Virus record (IMG/VR): IMGVR_UViG_3300033149_000645 | Location: 1-26,059 of that record | Reading direction: 5' to 3' (one strand) | Source: a virus | Length of the DNA: 26,059 bases | Shown here: positions 2,559-26,059 of the stretch, one piece after another | Layout: each line of letters opens with the position of its first letter | How positions within the stretch are numbered: the stretch's first letter is position 1 | Notes under the pieces: model-generated | The model's database searches: none | Told to the model about the DNA's origin: nothing | Seen by the model: only the letters and a program-made list of their open reading frames with translations | Translations under genes and position numbers: made by a program

Positions 2559-3332
2559 TCAAGGATACGATTTCATCATCTGGCTTTCTACTACGAAAAG
2601 TTCCGTAGCGGTAGTCGATGAGTTAGTCGCGATAAACTTGCAATAGTGTCCGAGTACACCGTGGGATTCTGCCTGAGCGTTCTTTACACCCATCATATAC
2701 CAAGTGTCTTGCGGATTCGTCCCCCCTGCCGACAACGTAAAGCTGACCTCGGTTCTATCCGCTGAGAACGCGGTGACAGGGCCGACTACAATAGGTACAC
2801 CTGGATTAGCAGGGTCAATCGTATACAAGATATCTCCAATAGATAAGATACTGCTTATAGGGAAACCAAAGGTTATGACCCCAGCCGCCACAGTGGTATT
2901 GGAGCCGATTCCATTGACCGAGCGAAGGACATACTGCGAAGGGTCGATGGTTAAGGCAGGCTCTCCGTTCTCTGCGTCAGGGTTGCGAACGAACGCAAAG
3001 AACACAGCCTCTTTCTTCTCAAACCACGCTTCATCGATGTACCCGTTTTGGATGTCCGTCTCCAGCTCCATCTCCCACGCTTGGTCAGACTCCAACTCCA
3101 TCGTCTTCCACAAACTGTTGTCCGTTGGGTTGTCGTTGAAGATACTCGTCATTTGAGATGCGTAATTTACTCCGTAGTACTGATTACGCTCCTCATTGGT
3201 ATTATGCCTGTAAAGATTGCCTCCCTTAAAAGAGTAGAAGTAGTTGTTCATACCAGCCATCCACTCGGGGATGTAAGAGTAGAACGAAGGCCATCCCTCT
3301 ACGTCAGGAGAATATGTTAGTGTCTCAGCCAT
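2559..3332 (-). CDS. Tail-associated virion protein, 257 aa
   Basis: The first half (residues 1-120) is rich in aromatic residues, with motifs such as GWPSFYSYIPEWMAGMNNYF and YSFKGGNLYRHNTNEERN. I associate these with tail proteins of Bacteroidota phages encoded next to the large stabilisation protein. The second half (about 130-250) is beta-rich. It includes a segment SIGDILYTIDP...VGPVTAFS (160-216) that resembles small beta modules in the capsid protein and in the protein at 10794-11606. The start overlaps the stop of the 1816-residue gene by one base (TAATG), so the two are probably translated in a fixed ratio. A part of the tail or muzzle is the likely role, but the biochemical function is unknown. 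I see no enzyme motifs, signal peptide or membrane segment. Confidence 0.8.
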   Translation of the reverse strand: MAETLTYSPDVEGWPSFYSYIPEWMAGMNNYFYSFKGGNLYRHNTNEERNQYYGVNYASQMTSIFNDNPTDNSLWKTMELESDQAWEMELETDIQNGYIDEAWFEKKEAVFFAFVRNPDAENGEPALTIDPSQYVLRSVNGIGSNTTVAAGVITFGFPISSILSIGDILYTIDPANPGVPIVVGPVTAFSADRTEVSFTLSAGGTNPQDTWYMMGVKNAQAESHGVLGHYCKFIATNSSTTATELFVVESQMMKSYP

Positions 3333-15040: not shown

Positions 15041-17476
15041 TCATCGTGGCTCGAACTCAGCAAGGTCAAAGCCATCAAGGCTGTCCTCATTTGATTCAAA
15101 ATCGATAGGCGGTAAGTTGTTCTTACGCTGATTAATTAGTTTCGACTGCTCTGTATTCTGCTGACTAATACGCTTTGCTTTAGCGTCTTCACGCATATCT
15201 TCTCGCCCAGCAATAAGCTCTTCAGTTACACCCTTGAGCTGCATATTGTAATCGAACTCCTGCTGCATCAACTGGTTTTTAAGCTGAGCCTCCATCTGCA
15301 TACGCTCGATATCAAAAGCCACCTCGGCTTGTTTAATCTGCACCTTCTGCTGACCCTCGGCCTGTATCTTCATCATCTGAGACTCCGTAGCCAGCTTCTG
15401 AGATTCGAACTGCTGCTGAGCTTGCATCTGCTGCTGCTGAAGCTGCATAGCTTCCTCGCGCTCTTGCTTCTTCTTGCGCTTGAGCTTAAGCAATTGATTA
15501 CCTAGCTTGATGTTCTTAATCTCTCTGATATCGATAGCGTCCTCCAAATTGATATCGTTCTTAGACAAAGCCATCTGGATATTCTGCTCGAGCATAGCCC
15601 TTTGCTCTTCGTCAGGGGCCACCTCAATAAAGACACCGAAATCGTAGATATACAAATCTTTGATATCGTTAAGGATAGAGATATTGTACTTGCCGATTTG
15701 ATTTGCAAACTCTTCCTTAAAGTCTGCATACTCCAATATATCAGCTACCCTACACGACAAAGCTTCAGCCAACGACTTCAATATAAACAAGCTACCATCT
15801 AAGATATGACGAGTGGCTACGTTAGAGTTAAGCGCCGCTAGTTTCTGTACCCCTACCAATGAGTTAGGGTCAGGCATAGAGCCGTCACGCGCTTCATTGA
15901 GACCAGTAATATCACGTATCATATTGAGGTAGTGATTGTAGTTCCCAATCAAAGCACTAATCTTAGACTGCCCTGAGTTACTGGTGAGCTGCTGGATAGG
16001 GACTCGAGCGTTATTAAACTCGCCATCCTGCGTATAGCTACGCCCGACTACACTACCCGTCTGGAAATACAGACGCAAAGCGTCCTCTGGGTTGTACGCA
16101 TTGCCTGTCCCAAGGTCTACTTCGTTAAGTCCGTCAGCATCAATGAACACACCGTCTGGAACGATGCGCGACATTACTTGCTGTAGTTTAAGGTGGGTAA
16201 TCTGTATCTGGTCAGCCAAAGGAATCATACGTCGAACCAATGACTCGATGTTACCCTTGTACATACGTGGCGCACAGGCCAAGTAATTTGGAACTGCGTA
16301 CTGTGATGCAGATTTAGGACGGACCATATTTTCCGCCATCTCCCACTTGAGAATAATATTGGTTCCCATAACCATAACGCCCTCATACCATACATCGATA
16401 GTCTTTTCGATTTTCTCGAACCGACCATCCTCCATCATCTCTTCTGGTGGGTTAAACGTATCGTCCTTCTCAACCACCTTAGCGCCTCCGCCATCCATTA
16501 CCTTCTTCTTGTAGACAAACTTTTGTGTTGTCTTGTAGTTGAAGTACATAAGGGTCGTGGTATCCTGATAGAAGATATCGTTATCGTAGAACTGTTGTAC
16601 GTTATAGTAATCGTACCAGCTCTGAGAATGCTTTGAAATTTCCTTGAGGTCGTCCGTAGTAAGGTTAGGGTCTATCTTAATAAGCTCAGTGATAGGCACT
16701 GTCTTAATCTCTCCCCAGTAGAAATTATCTTGGAAGTACGGGTCTTCGGTATAGCTATATACCACGTTAGCGGGGTCTACATACTTTACCTGTACCCCGT
16801 CACCCTTGAGGAACTCGTGCTTTACAACTCCTACACCAAGTACAGCAAGGTCGTAGTCTACGCGCTGCCTGGTTTCGTTATACCTGTTCTGCTCGAGAAG
16901 TGTATTGATAGCCTCCTCTTCCGCTATCTCAATCGCAGGCTTATAGTTAAGCTGCATATACAAAGACAGTTCCTCATCGCTATTAGGAAGCTCGTCAGGA
17001 GATACAGTGAAAGGGTCTACGCCAAAGCCTTCCTTTACCTGCATCAAAAGGTCTTTAGAGACCATCTGAGCCTCTATCATATCCTGATACTTACTACGCT
17101 TTGCCGACGACATAGCGTCTTGAGCGTAAGCCTTGACATCAAACAAACGGTCCGACATACCGTTAACTACGATATCAACGAACTTAGGGATGATAGGAAT
17201 TGGAGTCCAGTCCAGGTTCAAATAAGAAAGGTCACCGTCGACCGAGAGTTCACTTTTATACTTAGCAACAGACTGCTCTCCCCTAGCGTACAATCGGAGT
17301 CGATTAAAATCTCTCCATTGGCTATAGAAGCGACAACCGTTTCCATCCCTCTTAAACCACTCATACTGAATGGCTTGTCCAATCTGCAATCCATACTCAT
17401 AAGTCGCCTTTTCAGCGTCAGAAACAAATTGGGTAGGGAACGAGGCAGATGCTATGTTAACCTGAACATCTCTCAT
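15041..17476 (-). CDS. Portal protein, 811 aa
   Basis: The portal forms the dodecameric ring at the capsid vertex through which TerL packages DNA. The length (811) fits large podovirus or crAss-like portals. The N-terminal part has FYSQWRDFNRLRLYARGEQS (50-69) and a segment with LNLDWTPIPIIPKFVDIVVN (86-105), typical of portal cores. Residues around 516-560 contain ITGLNEARDGSMPDPNSLVG and VQKLAALNSNVATRHILDGS, a signature I associate with portals of Bacteroidota phages. Residues 663-770 are a long Gln/Met/Glu-rich helix (EEAMQLQQQQMQAQQQFESQ), probably the C-terminal barrel. The final 40 residues are acidic. Its ATG overlaps the TerL stop by one base (TAATG), consistent with coupled translation of the packaging machine. 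Confidence 0.92.
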   Translation of the reverse strand: MRDVQVNIASASFPTQFVSDAEKATYEYGLQIGQAIQYEWFKRDGNGCRFYSQWRDFNRLRLYARGEQSVAKYKSELSVDGDLSYLNLDWTPIPIIPKFVDIVVNGMSDRLFDVKAYAQDAMSSAKRSKYQDMIEAQMVSKDLLMQVKEGFGVDPFTVSPDELPNSDEELSLYMQLNYKPAIEIAEEEAINTLLEQNRYNETRQRVDYDLAVLGVGVVKHEFLKGDGVQVKYVDPANVVYSYTEDPYFQDNFYWGEIKTVPITELIKIDPNLTTDDLKEISKHSQSWYDYYNVQQFYDNDIFYQDTTTLMYFNYKTTQKFVYKKKVMDGGGAKVVEKDDTFNPPEEMMEDGRFEKIEKTIDVWYEGVMVMGTNIILKWEMAENMVRPKSASQYAVPNYLACAPRMYKGNIESLVRRMIPLADQIQITHLKLQQVMSRIVPDGVFIDADGLNEVDLGTGNAYNPEDALRLYFQTGSVVGRSYTQDGEFNNARVPIQQLTSNSGQSKISALIGNYNHYLNMIRDITGLNEARDGSMPDPNSLVGVQKLAALNSNVATRHILDGSLFILKSLAEALSCRVADILEYADFKEEFANQIGKYNISILNDIKDLYIYDFGVFIEVAPDEEQRAMLEQNIQMALSKNDINLEDAIDIREIKNIKLGNQLLKLKRKKKQEREEAMQLQQQQMQAQQQFESQKLATESQMMKIQAEGQQKVQIKQAEVAFDIERMQMEAQLKNQLMQQEFDYNMQLKGVTEELIAGREDMREDAKAKRISQQNTEQSKLINQRKNNLPPIDFESNEDSLDGFDLAEFEPR

Positions 17477-19755
17477 TATTTAACTAGTTCGCTTATATTT
17501 CCACGATTGTTGTACCTAGCAAAGGTAACAGATAATTTCGATTGCTTTTCAACAGGCTGATAGATGTGTTTTTGGTTAGCCATAATGGCCAATCCAGAGC
17601 TTATCGTAGCGTCAAATCGAGTCCTGTTGTTGATATCAAACTTAGCCCAGTCCTCAAGGGTTCTAGTAAATGGCATAGCGCCTATATCTCCTTGCTCTCG
17701 ATACGTTCCCTCCATATCAATACCAACGTGTTTCTCGATATAAGTCTCAATAGCCGAAGCGTGAGATTGCTTTACGTCTTCCGAGGTATTTGGTATACCA
17801 CCCAGCTCCTTCTCCGTCTTAGAGAGTTTATTAAACTTCTTGTCGGGACGGTTCATAGAGAACTTGCGGTAACCTCTGTTCTTGAAATGATAGAGAAGCC
17901 TTGGCTTGTTATTCTCGGTAAGGATAGGCATACCATAGAATATACAGGCCATCAAAACTTCTTCGAAGAATATCTCAGCGGTCTGTGGTCGAGCTACATA
18001 CTCTAAGAAAAACTCGTTGCTCGGGGCGTCGTCCATATTAAACTTAGTCATCCCGTGAAGAGAGCCGTTCGAACCCCTTCCGCCTACTACACCAGATATA
18101 TCGTACGGGTCGCAACCTAGAGAGCCAATATGTTCGTTTCCAGGGTACTTCATACCATTGCGAACCACGACGTGGTTTTGCATACGTGACGGAGGCGTCC
18201 ACCCCAACAAGAACCTGCCGTTACGCTCTGGCGTCCATATAACTTGACTGTCTTTCTCACCGTTTTTCCAATGAAAAGAACCCCTAGTGAGGTAATGCTC
18301 CTTTATCATTTCGTCGTTATAGTCAATCTGCTGGTATATCTTAGTTAGATTGAATATAGACTGCTTGCTTTCATCTCGAAAAGCGTGAGACTCGGTACGC
18401 GGAAACTGCCGATAGAACTCGTTGAGCGCGTCGGGGTCGTTCTTAAGTGAAGCCACCTCGTTCTCCCAGTACTCGATAGCACCCATTTTAATAGAGCTTC
18501 CGTCGATACCCTTTACATCGTGAAGCGGCTTCCTAAATACAGGCATACCATACCTGTCGATATAGCCTTCAAAGTTCCACTCCATAGGAATAAAAAGGCT
18601 GTACATACCGCTCTTGGTTTGACCGTTGGCGTTACGATTGCTTACGTCAGATTGATTGTATAGAGTCTTGTAGTTACCACCACCTTTGCTTAGAGCGTTA
18701 GATGTAGAGCCCATCATACACTTCCCTATAATACGGCTACCGAGACGTAGGCAGGTCTTCGTGACCCGCCAGTTATTTAGGATGTTCTCTGGTTTCTCCC
18801 ACTTACCGCTCTCGTCGTGAACCAATAGGAGCAGCTTTTCTCCGTCATAACTGTTGTCCGCTGTATTCTTCCAGTCTATAGTGGTATCGAGACCGTCAAG
18901 CTCCTCAGACTCATCGAGGTACATATTACGCTTAGTAATCTTAGACGCAGGCACTCGGTAGGCAAGCTCTGTCTTTGGCTTGTCCATACCGTCCTGTATA
19001 GGCTTGAAAAAGAACGGGTAGTTAGCCGATATAGGAACGACTTTATCCGTAAACATCTTCTTGGCGTCAGCACCCGTCTTGGAAAGTATTCCTACACGAG
19101 CGTCTTTAGCTAACGTCCCTATATTCACGCACTCCGAAGACCCCATAAAAGAAAATCCTGAACGACGTATCTTAAGGTAACACATACCAAAGCAACGGAC
19201 ATCAGCTTTACACGCTTCCCAGAATATATAGAATATACGGTTGGCTTCTCGGAAGTCAGGAAGCCCTACGTCAATCTTGGTCCATTGGAGGTAAGTATAG
19301 TGCGAGCCTGTTATGTATGTAGGCACTCCGTTATTCATAAACCACGCGCCATTTTCACGCCTGTCGAACTCTTGCTCTACAAAGTCTACCCACCTGTCTT
19401 TAAACTCAGCGGGCATATCATTCCACTGAAATATTGTCTTGATACGTGTAAGCTCCTTGGGATACTCTAATGGCTGCCAGTACTGCTCTTTCTTGGATTT
19501 ACTTCGCTGTATCGGGTCGGAGGCAGACATAGGAAGCGCAATACGCACACCCTGTATTTCGACCACCTCACCTACCGTTCCGTCCTTTGATATAACCACA
19601 AAGTCATAGTCTTCGTTATATCCGTACTCCCAGTTTTTTGCGCGATTTTTTCTGGCAAGAACGTTTTTAGGCACTACACCTTCGAGCTGAGTAAGTAGTT
19701 TATTTTGACCTTCGTTCTGCAAAACCTTGCTTGGTATTAGTAGATGAATCGCCAC
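17476..19755 (-). CDS. terL: Terminase large subunit, 759 aa
   Basis: This is the ATP-driven DNA packaging motor. The ATPase half shows an Arg-rich Walker A-like loop KIRRSGFSFMGSSE (195-208), a Walker B LLLLVHDESGKW (308-319, D314 and catalytic E315) and a coupling motif MGSTSNALSKGGGNY (348-362). The nuclease half has GCDPYD (547-552, D549), TENN (613-616, E614) and SEDVKQSHASAIETY (658-672, D660), the expected acidic metal ligands of an RNase H-like fold. The length is above the usual 500-650, with about 180 residues before the Walker loop. The loop lacks the usual G-K-S/T lysine. The start is GTG, chosen because GGAG lies five bases upstream and the next Met is at residue 76. It overlaps the previous gene by 56 bases, unlike the other 1-4 base overlaps, so the start is less certain than the rest. 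Confidence 0.95.
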   Translation of the reverse strand: MAIHLLIPSKVLQNEGQNKLLTQLEGVVPKNVLARKNRAKNWEYGYNEDYDFVVISKDGTVGEVVEIQGVRIALPMSASDPIQRSKSKKEQYWQPLEYPKELTRIKTIFQWNDMPAEFKDRWVDFVEQEFDRRENGAWFMNNGVPTYITGSHYTYLQWTKIDVGLPDFREANRIFYIFWEACKADVRCFGMCYLKIRRSGFSFMGSSECVNIGTLAKDARVGILSKTGADAKKMFTDKVVPISANYPFFFKPIQDGMDKPKTELAYRVPASKITKRNMYLDESEELDGLDTTIDWKNTADNSYDGEKLLLLVHDESGKWEKPENILNNWRVTKTCLRLGSRIIGKCMMGSTSNALSKGGGNYKTLYNQSDVSNRNANGQTKSGMYSLFIPMEWNFEGYIDRYGMPVFRKPLHDVKGIDGSSIKMGAIEYWENEVASLKNDPDALNEFYRQFPRTESHAFRDESKQSIFNLTKIYQQIDYNDEMIKEHYLTRGSFHWKNGEKDSQVIWTPERNGRFLLGWTPPSRMQNHVVVRNGMKYPGNEHIGSLGCDPYDISGVVGGRGSNGSLHGMTKFNMDDAPSNEFFLEYVARPQTAEIFFEEVLMACIFYGMPILTENNKPRLLYHFKNRGYRKFSMNRPDKKFNKLSKTEKELGGIPNTSEDVKQSHASAIETYIEKHVGIDMEGTYREQGDIGAMPFTRTLEDWAKFDINNRTRFDATISSGLAIMANQKHIYQPVEKQSKLSVTFARYNNRGNISELVK

Positions 19756-19984
19756 GCTTCTCCATAGCCTCTAAATTCTCTCTCTCTTGCTCTATACGAT
19801 TGAGTATCTCTAACGCATCAAATATAGCAAGCTTTTTAGTGGCCGCTGCATTTTTTAGCCTGTCAGCAGCCAGCTCGTCTTCAAGGTCTGGCTTGATTAT
19901 ATCTTCTTTAGCTACTTTGATAAGCTGCTCTACCGCCCTATGACCAGCCGCTATAATCTTCTCTTTGAGTTCTTTTGAGTTCAT
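19700..19984 (-). CDS. Small terminase subunit candidate, 94 aa
   Basis: This small, highly charged protein appears all-helical: MNSKELKEKIIAAGHRAVEQ, LIKVAKEDIIKPDLEDELAA, then KKLAIFDALEILNRIEQERE. It lies directly upstream of terL and overlaps it by 56 bases. Small terminase subunits are commonly encoded there and have helical oligomerisation domains. A helix-turn-helix is not obvious, and the last 20 residues are polar and probably disordered. Its ATG overlaps the upstream stop by four bases (ATGA). I assign TerS from position and composition only. A generic unknown protein is the alternative. Confidence 0.6.
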   Translation of the reverse strand: MNSKELKEKIIAAGHRAVEQLIKVAKEDIIKPDLEDELAADRLKNAAATKKLAIFDALEILNRIEQERENLEAMEKRGDSSTNTKQGFAERRSK

Positions 19985-20544
19985 AATACCAAGGTTATGT
20001 TGTCGGTAAACATACGGTACAGCTTTTCACCGTCTACCGTAAACTCATATTCGCTATCAGGGAGGAATGAAACCTCATCACCTTCATTTACACCAAGAGA
20101 GAGCAGTTGGTCGTTGCCATATTTAAGGCGCCCGATAAGAGGTTCTTCCTTTGAGAACTTACCTATCCACGATTCTTTCTCTTCTACAGGCTCTACAAAA
20201 CAATATTTCCCGTGAGCCTGCCACCTGTCGTCTTTTTTATATAGAAAGAACTGGTCGTCCGTCACAAAGAAAAGGTCATCTTGGAAATAGCTGCGGCCAC
20301 TTTTCTGAACACCATACATATCGTAATAATACTTAAATACGTTATGATGAACCAACAGGGTATCTCCCGCCTGGATAGGGCCTGAGTAAGAAAGCGGAAC
20401 GGACTGTACGATAGCGTAGCGGTTAGAAAATCTGTGGTCTTCTTGGGATGAACTTACGATAAACTCAACGTCGTCGGCTTTTCGTTTGTTATCGTATCTA
20501 CTGCTATTTTTTGGCTTTACTATAAAAGAGTCTGGTGACCTCAT
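19981..20544 (-). CDS. Possible GroES-like (Cpn10-fold) protein, 187 aa
   Basis: The protein shows two segments that look like Cpn10 beta-barrel strands. Residues 42-72 have RYAIVQSVPLSYSG then IQAGDTLLVHHNVF. Residues 137-184 have IGRLKYG, VNEGDEVSFLPDSEYEFTVD and GEKLYRMFTDNI. The pattern 'x-x-G-D-x-V-x-F, then Y/E-x-x-x-D-G-x-x-x-x-x-x-x-D-I' is that of the GroES C-terminal strands. Between them is a loop region (73-130), far longer than the GroES mobile loop. Phage co-chaperonins (T4 gp31 type) help host GroEL fold capsid proteins, and this gene sits among packaging genes. Both ends overlap neighbours (TAATG upstream, ATGA downstream). The homology is a judgement by eye. An unrelated beta-barrel virion protein is the main alternative. 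Confidence 0.6.
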   Translation of the reverse strand: MRSPDSFIVKPKNSSRYDNKRKADDVEFIVSSSQEDHRFSNRYAIVQSVPLSYSGPIQAGDTLLVHHNVFKYYYDMYGVQKSGRSYFQDDLFFVTDDQFFLYKKDDRWQAHGKYCFVEPVEEKESWIGKFSKEEPLIGRLKYGNDQLLSLGVNEGDEVSFLPDSEYEFTVDGEKLYRMFTDNITLVL

Positions 20545-20768: not shown

Positions 20769-21323
20769 TTAGATAGAATGAACCACGAAGTTTACGTGCT
20801 TACAAGTAATACCTGCACCTCCAGCGACGCTATTCTTTACACGAACCCTTAGAGATTCATTGTAGGCTACGTTCGTGATACACGTCATAGTCAAAACAAA
20901 GTCGTCTCCCGTACCAGGGGAGGTTACATCTTGTGTAGACGCCACTATATCAACGCCGTTATTAGACAATAAAGCTGTAATAACGTGATTATTACCCGCG
21001 CTTAACGACATAGATACGGTTACCTGCGAAAGCAAGGTAGTCTGATTTGTGTTGACATTCGTCACCAAGTTGCTTGAAGATTGATATCCATCAGCCAAAC
21101 CCTCAGAAAGCGTCACATTTAAATCTACATAAGTATCCGCCTCTGTTATGGTTGTTGTCGATTCGGTATTCGAGTACGCGTCGATATAATAAGTTGGAGC
21201 TGTAGCTGAAGACAGCGAGTCCACCCTAATGTTCTTCGTGGCGTTAGAGTCATTCGCGTCGCTAACCACAATCAAGTCAGACGGACTAGGCGTAACGGTT
21301 CCGTATGTACTAATCTTAGGCAT
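20769..21323 (-). CDS. Small fibre-like virion protein, 184 aa
   Basis: Residues 1-40 contain KISTYGTVTPSPSDLIVVSD and ATKNIRVDSL. This resembles the N-terminal attachment stretch found in many phage fibre and fibre-associated proteins ('...DLI.V.D..D...TK.I.V..L'). The remaining 140 residues are Thr/Ser/Asn/Val-rich and look like a beta-sandwich (TITEADTYVDLNVTLSEGLA, NHVITALLSNNGVDIVASTQ, ESLRVRVKNSVAGG). This composition fits an extracellular or capsid-surface trimeric protein. A weak AAGG lies five bases before the ATG. The protein sits between the lysis genes and the packaging genes. The role is inferred from composition; the protein is not otherwise recognised. Confidence 0.7.
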   Translation of the reverse strand: MPKISTYGTVTPSPSDLIVVSDANDSNATKNIRVDSLSSATAPTYYIDAYSNTESTTTITEADTYVDLNVTLSEGLADGYQSSSNLVTNVNTNQTTLLSQVTVSMSLSAGNNHVITALLSNNGVDIVASTQDVTSPGTGDDFVLTMTCITNVAYNESLRVRVKNSVAGGAGITCKHVNFVVHSI

Positions 21324-22188: not shown

Positions 22189-22466
22189 TACATTTTTTCT
22201 TCAGGGCATTCCCATTTATTAGGGTTGGGTGGGTAAGGAACGCGGTTCTCGCACTTATAGTACCACCCTGGCTCACCGACTTGAAGGTCGATATACGCAG
22301 CCATTTCCTCCTCGGTATCGAATATATCGAGGTACTGCTGTCCTGTACTAAGCTCACCCTTAGAGGCATACCCGTAGTTATTGCGCGGGTTACCCTTTAC
22401 CTCTTCGCCGTTATTAAAGGCAAACCAAAAAGCAGGCGTTTTAAATACGTGTGTATGCTTAGCCAT
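22188..22466 (-). CDS. Unknown small acidic protein, 92 aa
   Basis: I do not recognise this 92-residue protein. It begins MAKHTHVFKTPAFWFAFNNG, continues with YASKGELSTGQQYLDIFDTE and EEEMAAYIDLQVGEPGWYY, then ends in a short Cys/Pro-rich tail (CENRVPYPPNPNKWECPEEK). Two cysteines near the end could form a disulphide. It is compact and aromatic-rich, without a membrane segment. One-base TAATG overlaps at both ends bind it to its neighbours. Its place between the adhesin gene and the lysis genes suggests a virion accessory protein or a chaperone of the adhesin, but nothing in the sequence proves this. Confidence 0.7.
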   Translation of the reverse strand: MAKHTHVFKTPAFWFAFNNGEEVKGNPRNNYGYASKGELSTGQQYLDIFDTEEEMAAYIDLQVGEPGWYYKCENRVPYPPNPNKWECPEEKM

Positions 22467-22900
22467 TACTCAACGATTTCAGCGTTCTGGTCTTCAGTGG
22501 CTTCTTCTGGCTCTGGCGGGAACCATCCGTTGGCTTCCATATACGCTTGGTCGCGCACCGTACACTCAGTCGGGATGATAGTATCGAAGACCACTGTAGG
22601 AGATGTCGTGATGGTTGTGGTGAGCGCGTCTTTCTCCGCTTCTGGCATCAAAGGAAATAAAGCCTGTAGCTCGGTCAGGTCCACCGCTGCGTTCACGTAG
22701 ATAAGCCAGTCCAAAATAATAGATAACGCAGCCTCTCCCGTCGTAGGGTTAATAACCGAACCGAACAGATTGAAATTTGCTTCGTCGGGATTCTGGATAG
22801 ACTCAGGACGTGTGATGCAGTACAACTGTCGAGAGATAGCTGCTGCTCGCTCTTCTGAGGTAAGCCCCCCTTCGGGCGGGACGATTAGATAATTACTCAT
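22466..22900 (-). CDS. Unknown acidic protein after the adhesin gene, 144 aa
   Basis: This 144-residue protein starts MSNYLIVPPEGGLTSEERAA and has a helical middle with LFGSVINPTTGEAALSII and VDLTELQALFPLMPEAEKDA. It ends with an acidic tail (PEPEEATEDQNAEIVE). No transmembrane segment or known motif is clear. It is the first gene after the adhesin, and a TATATTTG element 25 bases upstream may start its transcript. Genes in this position sometimes encode chaperones that help fold or attach a tail fibre, but the sequence neither supports nor refutes that. The TAA overlaps the next ATG by one base. Confidence 0.75.
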   Translation of the reverse strand: MSNYLIVPPEGGLTSEERAAAISRQLYCITRPESIQNPDEANFNLFGSVINPTTGEAALSIILDWLIYVNAAVDLTELQALFPLMPEAEKDALTTTITTSPTVVFDTIIPTECTVRDQAYMEANGWFPPEPEEATEDQNAEIVE

Positions 22901-22979: not shown

Positions 22980-25900
22980 TCATACGTAGATATCGTAAAA
23001 GGTGTTGATGTTTGTTTCAATTCCTGTGCGGTTTTGACCACTATTGTAAATAATAGCTTCTTGCAATTTACCTTGTAAATAATCTGCGGGCGTTCCGTAT
23101 CCGTGCCGTCCAATTAGTATTTGCGCAGGTGTGAAAATTGGTTGAGATGAACCTGATGCACTCGTTCCATTATTTTGATATATTGTTGCCGTGCTTTGTG
23201 ATGTGTAATCTAAATAAGACAGTAGCTGAGTGTTTGCTGGAGCATTTACAATTCCTGGACGTTGGAAACTAGTGTTTCGACTAGTGATAGCATTTTTATT
23301 TCCCTCATTAGACATAAATAAGTGGCTGAAATGCTGATTGCTGGCTGTGAATAAACTAACGGTGCCACCACGAACACCGCTCACACTTGCGACATCTACA
23401 ATAGTAAAGGGAAAAGAATTAATGGAAGTTGCCGTTACCGATAAAACCGTACTGCTTCCATTGAACTCCACCGCAGGTTTTCCGCTCTCCAATATTACCC
23501 CGTTTTGACCGTCGTAAATCTTTGGGCGTGACCCTGAGCTAGGTTGCGTAACGTTCTTGCCTGACCCACTCTGGTCGTACCACGTCTCTACGAAAACATC
23601 ATTGCTACCTCCGTACTGAGTTAGAGCTACAGTATCCAGCTCACCGAATACATCGAACCCAATGTCTTGCGTCGCTCCGCCCACGTTGTCTTGCACCTTA
23701 ATAGCAAAGCCTGTGTACGTTGAATCCAAAAGCCTCAATGAATACGCAGCCGCTGCACCGCTGTACGTGTCGAGTAGCGGCGTGTTTTGTGTGAAGTAGT
23801 CGGCTATATTTTCTTCGATGCTCGTTTGGTCTGCACTTGATTTATCAGATGCATAAACGACTACTTCTTGGTTTTTGCCTTCCCAATTTTCCGCCCCGCC
23901 ACCGTTTGCACCAATTACAAAAGGTACAGAATTCGGATAAGTTATGTCCGCCCCTGAAAACGTCCCCTCTGTTGTTCCATTTATATCGATAAAGCCTTGT
24001 TTTGAATTTAAAGAAAATAAAGTTCGCGTGCGAACCAGCGTTCCAATCGTGGCAGCCACCCCATTTAATCGGGAAAATAGGCTAGTATTAAATCTCCGCA
24101 TCATCCAAAGCCTAGCATATGGGCTTGTGTGCGTTCCAGAGGTTTGAGGTAAGGCGTAAAAAATCTGCACTCCTGTATTAGTGCCTGTTATTTTGCAAGT
24201 TTGAAATATAGTTAATTGTGGGTCGTTTGCTACCCCGTCGGAAGTGCTTAAATAATTGCTCGAACCATCAAAATCCAAAGCCAACTTCCCGTTCTCCGTC
24301 ACCAACGCGCCACTCGTTCCGTCGTAAATCTTTGGACGAGCGCTTGAGCTAGCCTGCGTAGCGTTATTTCCGTTGCCCGACTGGTCGTACCAAGTCTCTA
24401 CGAAAACATCGTTAGAGCCTCCATAAGAGATGATGGCCGCCTCGTCGAGGTTATTGTTAGCGTCGAAGTAGATGTCCTGCGTAGAGCCTCCTACGGTGTC
24501 CTGGACCTTCATAGCAGGCCCTGTGTAGGCAGTGCGCAACTTACGGACCGAGTATGCTGCCTCAGCTCCGCTTCCGTAGGTGGTGTCCAAGAGGAGGTTC
24601 ACCACAACAGCGGCACCTAAGTCAACGATAGTCCAGCTGTATGGAGCAGCGACCAGCTTATTATAAGCTGCGATAGCAGCTGAGTCAACCGAACCGTGAA
24701 GCTGGTTGATATCAGAAAGGGTTACGTTAGCCTGCAAAGAGCCAGCGCCAGTCCCCTGTGCGGCCCAACCAATCAAGAGCTTGTCCCAGTTCTCAGCACT
24801 GATACCAGAGTTGGTGAACATATCTGTGGCAGTTGTAAGGCTGCCCACATCCCAGCTAGAGAGGTCCTGATTAAAAGCAGTAGCGTCCTCAAAGGTGCTC
24901 TGCATAGTATCAACGCTAGAGGTGTCCCAATTAGAAAGGTCTTGATTAAAAGAACTGGCCGTATCAAAAGTGCCTTGCAAATCGTTCAAAGCAGTTGTAG
25001 TCCAGCTTCCTATTGGTTGATTAAATGCTGCTGCGCTTTTAAACATTTGACGAAACGAGCCCACCCCAGAAACGTCCCAAGTGCTTATGTTTTGGTTGAA
25101 GAGAGTGGCGGCAGAAAACATTCTCGTCATACTGTTTGCACCAGACATATCCCATCCGCTTATATCTTGATTGAAGGAGACGCAAAAATTGAAGGCGTCA
25201 GTGCAGTTTCCTCCAGAACCCGCTACATCCCAATTATCTAAGGGTTTATCAAAATTAAACGCCTGATTGAATGCACGGAACAAAGAGCTAGACGTCCTTT
25301 GATAAACAAAGTTTACGTTTGGATTTGCGTTACCTGCATTAGAAAGAAATGAATTAACACTTCCAGTAATAGGAGAGGCAACCGTACCCCACGCACTTAT
25401 ATCGCCAGTAAATGATTCGCAATCACCAAACTGGTCATCCCTCATCACCTTACTGCCAAATGTAGGAGCAGCGGTAGTTGTGATGTTCATTTTCTCGCAA
25501 TCAAAAAACACCAGCTCATCAAGGTATATGACAGCAGAACCCCAATCAGTGATGTCCTTAACCTTTTTTCTATCGTTAGCTTGAGTAACAGTAGTTCCGT
25601 CCTGTGAAATCCAGCTTACGTGGTCGATAGTACCCGTTATAGAAATACTGTATAACCCCGAAGCAGCGTACGTATGCGTAGCTTCAGCTTGATTCCAAGT
25701 AGTAATTGTATTTGAATTACCGTCGCCCCAATTTACCGTGAAGTTATACGTACCCGTTGACATCAAAGGCAGTCGATACTGGTCAGCGTTTGTACTTCCT
25801 GGAATCTGTATTTGAGTAGTGTCTATGTCAAAATCAAATGCTGAAGTAGGAAGCTCTCCCAAATCGACGATATTCCAGTTATATGGAGCCGCAGTCAGCT

Positions 25901-26059
25901 TATTGTAAGCCGCCGTAGCAGCTGCATCATCCGTGCCGTGGTATTGATTGATATCAGAAAGCGTAACATTAGCTTGTAAGCTACCCGCCCCCGTTCCTTG
26001 AGCAGCCCAGCCAATAAGCAAAGCATCCCAATTTGCAGCACTAAGCCCGCTATTGGTAA
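22980..26059 (-). CDS. Chimeric tail adhesin: PKD-like, BspA/DUF285 repeats, two ConA-like domains; 5'-partial
   Basis: The open frame continues past the right edge, so its true start is outside the window and 1025 residues are visible. A TTG at 26021 is not the start, because the frame upstream of it encodes a repeat homologous to one further on. In order: a repeat unit ending IVDLG (26057-25857); a PKD-like beta domain with TYNFTVNWGDGNSNTITTW (near 25710-25790); BspA/DUF285 units of 25 residues with FNQDLSNWDTSS-type cores (25280-24819); a second copy of the IVDLG unit (24815-24615); and two ConA-like domains, each with FVETWYDQSG. BspA repeats and ConA-like folds occur in surface adhesins of Bacteroidota. 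In a phage this is likely a receptor-binding tail fibre or spike. The ConA-like folds resemble the jelly roll of GH54 arabinofuranosidases, but catalytic activity is not shown. Confidence 0.88.
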   Translation of the reverse strand, partial: TNSGLSAANWDALLIGWAAQGTGAGSLQANVTLSDINQYHGTDDAAATAAYNKLTAAPYNWNIVDLGELPTSAFDFDIDTTQIQIPGSTNADQYRLPLMSTGTYNFTVNWGDGNSNTITTWNQAEATHTYAASGLYSISITGTIDHVSWISQDGTTVTQANDRKKVKDITDWGSAVIYLDELVFFDCEKMNITTTAAPTFGSKVMRDDQFGDCESFTGDISAWGTVASPITGSVNSFLSNAGNANPNVNFVYQRTSSSLFRAFNQAFNFDKPLDNWDVAGSGGNCTDAFNFCVSFNQDISGWDMSGANSMTRMFSAATLFNQNISTWDVSGVGSFRQMFKSAAAFNQPIGSWTTTALNDLQGTFDTASSFNQDLSNWDTSSVDTMQSTFEDATAFNQDLSSWDVGSLTTATDMFTNSGISAENWDKLLIGWAAQGTGAGSLQANVTLSDINQLHGSVDSAAIAAYNKLVAAPYSWTIVDLGAAVVVNLLLDTTYGSGAEAAYSVRKLRTAYTGPAMKVQDTVGGSTQDIYFDANNNLDEAAIISYGGSNDVFVETWYDQSGNGNNATQASSSARPKIYDGTSGALVTENGKLALDFDGSSNYLSTSDGVANDPQLTIFQTCKITGTNTGVQIFYALPQTSGTHTSPYARLWMMRRFNTSLFSRLNGVAATIGTLVRTRTLFSLNSKQGFIDINGTTEGTFSGADITYPNSVPFVIGANGGGAENWEGKNQEVVVYASDKSSADQTSIEENIADYFTQNTPLLDTYSGAAAAYSLRLLDSTYTGFAIKVQDNVGGATQDIGFDVFGELDTVALTQYGGSNDVFVETWYDQSGSGKNVTQPSSGSRPKIYDGQNGVILESGKPAVEFNGSSTVLSVTATSINSFPFTIVDVASVSGVRGGTVSLFTASNQHFSHLFMSNEGNKNAITSRNTSFQRPGIVNAPANTQLLSYLDYTSQSTATIYQNNGTSASGSSQPIFTPAQILIGRHGYGTPADYLQGKLQEAIIYNSGQNRTGIETNINTFYDIYV
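22983..24600 (-). repeat. Tandem pair of ConA-like domains
   Basis: Two domains of about 265 residues follow each other: about 23790-24600, then 22983-23786. Each opens with AYS(V/L)R-x-L...YTG, has QDI-F and GGSNDVFVETWYDQSG, then ARPKIYDG or SRPKIYDG, and ends GK-x-QE-x-x-x-Y-S...IE-x-NI. The boundaries are approximate. The DNA is nearly identical in one patch (24381-24413 and 23571-23603, two mismatches in 33) but diverged elsewhere. Confidence 0.85.
24615..24815 (-). repeat. Repeat copy 2 of a 67-codon unit in the adhesin
   Basis: Second copy of the unit at 25857-26057. It follows the last DUF285 repeat, so each copy probably caps one DUF285 array. The first copy therefore implies another array beyond the right edge. 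In the 26-codon core LLIGWAAQ...SDINQ the amino acids are identical, but 19 codons differ. Confidence 0.85.
24819..25280 (-). repeat. BspA/DUF285 25-residue repeats
   Basis: Five exact 75-base units (24819-24893, 24894-24968, 24969-25043, 25044-25118, 25119-25193) and one longer 29-residue unit (25194-25280) encode 'F-x-x-A-x-x-FNQ-D/N-I/L-S-x-W-D-V-S-x-x-x-x-M'. DNA identity between units is moderate, so the repeat has diverged and is not a recent expansion. This is the leucine-rich-like solenoid of BspA-type adhesins. Confidence 0.9.
25857..26057 (-). repeat. Repeat copy 1 of a 67-codon unit in the adhesin
   Basis: This copy, at the right edge, encodes a unit with LLIGWAAQGTGAGSLQANV and ends IVDLG. 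It aligns without gaps to the copy at 24615-24815, with 56 of 67 residues identical by my count. The DNA is much less similar than the protein. Confidence 0.85.

Follow-up and report, generated by a model that had tools for sequence, protein, structure and literature searches.

That phages exchange receptor-binding parts is well established, mostly for whole genes or whole domains. Recent fragment exchange across genera was described by Smug et al. for tail fibres and spikes (PMC10684548), and by the authors' own account their domain-based method misses swaps between homologous domains and recombination below the domain level (PMC10684548). Distant phage families are also known to have tail fibres in common (PMC10579305). 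In crAss-like phages, tandem tail-associated BACON domains evolve by domain duplication and horizontal transfer (PMC6949934). Here, we describe a giant fibre-like gene that resembles the genes for BACON proteins in that its product has tandem domains and is probably a tail-associated protein of phages of Bacteroidota. What appears to be new is a standard slot of sub-domain size, repeated in tandem and filled from a wide pool of cassettes: in BACON proteins whole domains move, whereas in the group described here a sub-domain cassette moves between fixed frames. A BACON domain itself was not matched in the window by Pfam at E <= 1. Jumbo-phage DUF285/BspA-like proteins, for example of Vibrio phage vB_pir03, likewise have DUF285 repeats in a phage protein, but the match to vB_pir03 covers mainly the DUF285 part (query residues 209-608), and among the loci examined DUF285 and cassette-bearing ConA modules occur together only in the near relatives of the window.

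The window, i.e. the whole stretch of DNA that was analysed, comprises 26,059 bases and is part of a virus record. The minus-strand gene at 22980..26057 (stop included) specifies a giant phage fibre or adhesin, of which the C-terminal 1025 residues are visible; the frame runs open into the contig edge, and the 5' end lies beyond the contig. That no more than this part is visible, as stated by the first-pass annotation of this DNA, agrees with the open frame and with the greater length of the full-length near-orthologues (2340-2600 amino acids) in the IMG/VR relatives L003, L005, L006, L008 and L011, whose genes adjoin the same terminase and portal as the window gene. The near-orthologues start with an N-terminus of about 40 residues (MSGTIIGIANAFG...), followed by two blocks of PKD-like domain plus DUF285 and by five or six ConA-like modules; a partial copy, L007, has three such blocks. 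The window fragment comprises a weak PKD-like domain, a DUF285 solenoid and two GH54/ConA-like modules. The modules form the C-terminal end of the protein, the last head lying a median of 164 residues from the C-terminus (120 frames with a head). The same annotation had expected an anchoring domain past the right edge. In the orthologues, the conserved N-terminus leads into the first PKD-like domain and no recognised anchor domain precedes it. Neither tandem DNA repeat arrays (TRF) nor a promoter signal above chance level were found.

The gene is a phage gene, as had been claimed. The contig carries a terminase large subunit (17476..19755, minus strand; phrog_6681, E 1.7e-181) and a portal protein (15041..17476, minus strand; phrog_6547, E 2e-146), and the same arrangement is found in G004, a record of 64.5 kb whose end repeat measures 127 bases; it is likely complete and has the fibre gene inside. 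In L003, phage-type genes flank the fibre gene (GroEL, terminase side). Together, the flanks in L003 and the position inside G004 with its end repeats refute the alternative that the gene is a host chromosomal adhesin at the edge of a prophage. The terminase and portal of the window share 73% identity with those of Manatee Spring phage MW202828 and about 44-48% with those of Elemovirus and Maribacter phage Panino, both of which infect Flavobacteriaceae; Cellulophaga and Tenacibaculum phages also match. From these matches, it is likely that the host belongs to the marine Flavobacteriia. The module of the window gave no match in the isolated relatives (Elemovirus, Cellulophaga and Maribacter phages), so there is no cultured phage with the module in this context.

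Other genes of the window encode structural proteins, an amidase, a GroES-like protein and a crAss-type muzzle C-terminal domain. The latter (2559-3332; PF25729, E 7e-12) supports the view that this group of podoviruses is distantly linked to Crassvirales. The GroES-like co-chaperonin lies at 19981-20544, shortly upstream of the terminase, and relatives also have GroEL near the fibre gene. A possible small tail-fibre gene is found in the same locus (20769..21323, minus strand), with a weak match to the tail fiber protein family phrog_24754 (E 0.0054). The small gene downstream of the fibre gene (22466..22900, minus strand; 144 amino acids) has no family match and stands beside the fibre gene in L003 as well. 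It should also be mentioned that L003 encodes, upstream of the phage GroEL gene, a secreted-looking M43 (PAPP-A-like) metallopeptidase (L003:2183-3232; PF05572, E 9.6e-14), which is an unusual gene for a podovirus.

The N-terminal part of the fragment starts with the end of a preceding DUF285 block and a linker (25842..26057, minus strand), as judged from the corresponding place in L007. Most of this DNA recurs at 24616..24800 on the same strand as a 73% identical copy, which forms the second inter-block linker (SAENWDKLLIGWAAQGTGAGSLQANVTLSDINQ...). The domain at 25602..25841 (minus strand) has a WGDG motif that is kept in the orthologues, and its Pfam scores are below the curated cut-offs (PF18911, 14.5 bits, cut-off 27; PF00801, 13.9 bits, cut-off 23.5); we therefore call it PKD-like only, as did the first-pass annotation. 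The DUF285 (BspA-like) solenoid (24756..25580, minus strand), in contrast, is firmly established by PF03382 (E 2.7e-43; 147 bits, cut-off 25 bits). A model of the whole 1025 residues reached a mean pLDDT of 58 and is usable only for the periodicity of the solenoid; in this low-confidence model, strands are predicted about 25 residues apart (309, 334, 359, 384, 409), a spacing as expected for a solenoid. DUF285 and related matches are also present in 124 annotated phage records, which lends no support to the earlier view that such modules are borrowed Bacteroidota surface families. In two Vibrio phages (MT811961.1 and OV032902.1; 286 and 320 kb), 37-38 separate places match the window protein, mostly its DUF285 part. 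A comparison of the DUF285 block with three bacterial genomes gave no match and, having no positive control, is uninformative on the origin of DUF285.

Each ConA/GH54-like module consists of a conserved head (about 95 amino acids), a variable cassette (about 130 amino acids) and a conserved tail. From module alignment and, for the cassettes, from comparison of modules at the same position, module 1 is divided into head (first 82 residues, 24324..24569), cassette (23853..24257) and tail with the motif QE..VYASDKS..IEENI plus a position-specific linker (23760..23852); module 2 into head (first 82 residues, 23514..23759), cassette (23055..23447) and tail plus C-terminus of the protein (22983..23054), all on the minus strand. 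The head of module 1 matches the N-terminal part of the arabinofuranosidase AbfB. That there are two ConA-like modules, as proposed earlier, was confirmed by three lines of evidence. PF09206 (GH54 ArabFuran-catal) is matched in the orthologue L008 with 64.9 bits (cut-off 25) at head positions 11-89 only; the window's own two modules gave no PF09206 match at E <= 1. A profile of 44 modules matches AbfB (1wd3) over the first ~70 residues with E 4.5e-5. Finally, an AlphaFold2 model of module 1, calculated from the 44 sequences, has a mean pLDDT of 82.6, and its best fold match is GH54 AbfB (Z 20.2, module residues 1-259). At rank 10 follows the cyanopodophage Pan3 tailspike (Z 15.1, rmsd 3.8, 202 residues) and further down carbohydrate-binding domains such as CBM40. 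Clostridial neurotoxin chains are also among the fold matches, only via the shared jelly-roll fold.

The cassettes are hypervariable in a conserved frame. We compared the window with five orthologues, whose terminases are 93-97% identical to that of the window. Among these six phages, heads at the same position are 85% identical (median 90%; 90-94% for the head of module 1 and its counterparts in the five other phages) and heads at different positions 64%, whereas cassettes are 27% identical at the same and 25% at other positions, with a shuffled-cassette null of 21 +/- 3%. The flanking DNA in L005 and L008 is 82-90% identical to that of the window. The cassette of window module 1 has 22-29% identity to four of the five same-position cassettes and 69% to that of L003 module 1; the cassette of module 2 has 17-28% identity to the same-position cassettes of the five phages and is identical in L004. 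At 40% identity, 164 distinct modules fall into 116 cassette clusters and one head cluster. Heads are 85% and terminases 93-97% identical, and cassettes lie near the shuffled null; position, frame and linker thus follow the genome by descent, whereas the cassette does not. All that points to a common descent of all cassettes is their shared fold, flanks and length; the sequences themselves are highly divergent.

Similar cassettes are found on dissimilar heads. Among the 164 modules, 20 pairs have cassettes that are 62-99% identical on heads that are 38-68% identical and at least 21 points lower. Examples are L008 module 3 and L011 module 1 (cassettes 90-91%, heads 46%), window module 1 and L009 module 1 (62% and 41%), L003 module 5 and L183 module 1 (87% and 39%) and L009 module 2 and L011 module 3 (87% and 54%), the last from phages whose terminases are far apart. 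In L236, modules 1 and 3 of the same 796-residue frame have cassettes that are 99% and heads that are 41% identical, which suggests very recent copying within the gene. Segmentation of ten pairs gave a DNA identity of 70-97% within the inferred cassette and of 43-55% outside; the left breakpoint lies between RPKIYDG and AVEFDGS, the right one within or after QE..IY.SDQS.NRT.IE. Homologous or homology-assisted recombination at these flanking motifs would be the simplest mechanism. All evidence for exchange comes from metagenomic contigs, in which repeats can give rise to chimaeric assemblies; against this speaks that most swapped cassettes lie between frames of about 50% DNA identity with short exact matches at the junctions (mostly 11-29 bases), although at junctions with exact matches of 24-29 bases a chimaera is less easily excluded. 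Altogether, the DNA sequences show that the gene was built by recombination, as had been suggested, and to a far greater extent than first suspected. A published description of cassette exchange in the ConA/GH54-like module was not found in the literature searched, the coverage of which is incomplete.

A difference by a whole module is seen in L004. Its sequence matches that of the window with 100% identity for 1524 bases of the fibre gene and with 99.6% for the following 5.7 kb, but it carries exactly one extra module. The two diverge at a 14-base stretch, TTTTACGATATCTA (22987..23000, minus strand), which has one exact copy in the window and lies within a 45-base imperfect repeat. The extra third ConA module (L004:1565-2320) is devoid of 12 conserved head residues (GGSEDVVVAGWL); this should cost it a core strand, and the module may be damaged or decaying.

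Could the cassettes have diverged in place, by fast point substitution under positive selection with head and tail under purifying selection and without any exchange? Most same-position cassettes are indeed unique (82 singletons among 164 modules), as rapid divergence would give. However, near-identical cassettes on unlike heads, between phages and within one protein, are impossible to obtain by point substitution; L008 module 3/L011 module 1 and L236 modules 1/3 already contradict it, and the cassettes are near the shuffled null next to genes that are 82-90% identical in DNA. We consider divergence in place very unlikely. Even less can be said for a diversity-generating retroelement. The targets of such elements have a conserved frame with a variable, ligand-facing part, and the modules share this layout. 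Yet whole segments of about 130 residues differ, also in length, and not adenine positions only, and a search for reverse transcriptase (RVT_1) gave no match in nine related records, including the one with 127-base end repeats (G004); the probability of this explanation is negligible. A silent store of cassettes was not detected either: queries with the known cassettes found neither a cassette nor a head outside the fibre gene in G004, and for this reason other phages are most likely the donors.

As to function, the modules could be active, arabinofuranosidase-like depolymerase tailspikes in which the cassette alters substrate specificity. Heads belonging to PF09206, the best structural match to GH54 AbfB over residues 1-259 and the annotation of some phage homologues as arabinofuranosidase speak for it. 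On the other hand, the model of module 1 spans AbfB residues 30-332, and E221, which the title of 6sxr names as the nucleophile, thus falls past the head, into the stretch matched by the variable part. In the 44 modules, invariant acids (Asp or Glu) occur in the tail motif only and none lies within the cassette, as judged from the alignment rather than from each residue on the structure. Because the cassette is devoid of an invariant acid where AbfB has E221, binding is more likely than catalysis, and we regard the enzymatic function as unlikely rather than far-fetched. Another possibility is that the protein, instead of binding receptors, is secreted or exposed on the capsid and serves as an adhesin by which phages are retained in particles rich in polysaccharide; host range would then hardly depend on it. 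Surface adhesins often contain BspA-like and PKD domains, and the N-terminus carries no recognised fibre anchor. What speaks against it is that residues 487-758 match a phage structural family (phrog_10356, 'virion structural protein', E 8.2e-30), so that the statement of the first-pass annotation that there is no recognisable phage fibre motif was wrong. Elsewhere, like modules are fused to tail proteins: they form the C-terminus of proteins that start with a tail-completion gp17 domain (PF11367) or a collagen-like tail-fibre sequence. The fold of the Pan3 tailspike and the extreme variability, which fits receptor specificity better, point in the same direction, and such an adhesin is quite unlikely in our view. 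Fusions of C-terminal modules to the gp17 domain were seen in L191:4621-7527 and about ten similar proteins, and cassettes are thus carried by several kinds of virion protein.

We favour, with a probability of about three in four, the view that the gene encodes a podoviral tail fibre or tailspike-like protein which is multivalent and diversified by exchange of sub-domain cassettes; its location in the virion and its binding of glycans are what we infer from the data above. For this group of phages, neither proteomics nor electron microscopy was found. According to this model, the N-terminal half with its short anchor peptide, PKD-like domains and DUF285 solenoids would be a conserved stalk, and the C-terminal half a row of GH54/ConA-fold modules, five to six in the orthologues and two in the window. 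Head and tail would form the jelly-roll frame and the inner ~130 residues the exchangeable cassette, which most likely bears the glycan-contacting surface. Cassettes are replaced by recombination that ends in both conserved flanking motifs, the donors being modules elsewhere in the gene as well as the fibre genes of further phages, and whole modules are gained or lost, too. In this way the binding repertoire could change while the remainder of the fibre stays intact, and selection by host receptors would drive the variation of the cassettes. Such an exchange could let a phage alter its adhesion target in one step.

It had been proposed that the modules were borrowed from surface protein families of Bacteroidota. 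For the ConA/GH54-like module this was not borne out. Searches of viral contigs gave at least 542 confirmed stretches, many of them full-length, against 65 relatives in 84,980 bacterial and archaeal genomes (GTDB), mostly weak or head-only. A host origin of the module was rejected on these numbers, which argue that it is chiefly a phage module. It is tempting to speculate that lectin cassettes of about 130 residues form a community pool common to phages of unrelated genera, and that fibres are diversified without reverse transcriptase by exchange of these cassettes between standard conserved frames, with tandem slots giving one phage several recombinable specificities. We consider this wider picture to be slightly less likely than not. 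The exchange of a fixed sub-domain segment makes host-range evolution readable from sequence, by matching cassette identity, and not genome similarity, to the surface glycans of the host. The recurring breakpoints also show where a phage binding domain has natural boundaries that its structure tolerates.

Among proteins of known structure, two are close to the module. GH54 AbfB (PF09206, PDB 1wd3) has an N-terminal part of about 80 residues that is homologous to the head, and a fold that matches the whole module (Z 20). However, AbfB is a secreted enzyme, whereas the window-type module is a phage structural module, is repeated in tandem and has no conserved acid in the E221 region. The tailspike of Pan3 (PDB 9vyh), which is a short-tailed phage (PMC9837993), has the same fold (Z 15.1, 202 of 269 residues) at only 17% identity. 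Its solved chain of 269 residues corresponds to about one module, whereas the orthologues of the window protein have 5-6 modules plus DUF285. Compared with the exchange described by Smug et al., the window group is an instance below the domain level, in which breakpoints recur and a single protein has tandem slots: the unit of exchange is a fixed sub-domain segment with recurring ends, present in up to six slots per protein, and cassette-bearing modules belong to fibre-like proteins whose N-termini are of many kinds.
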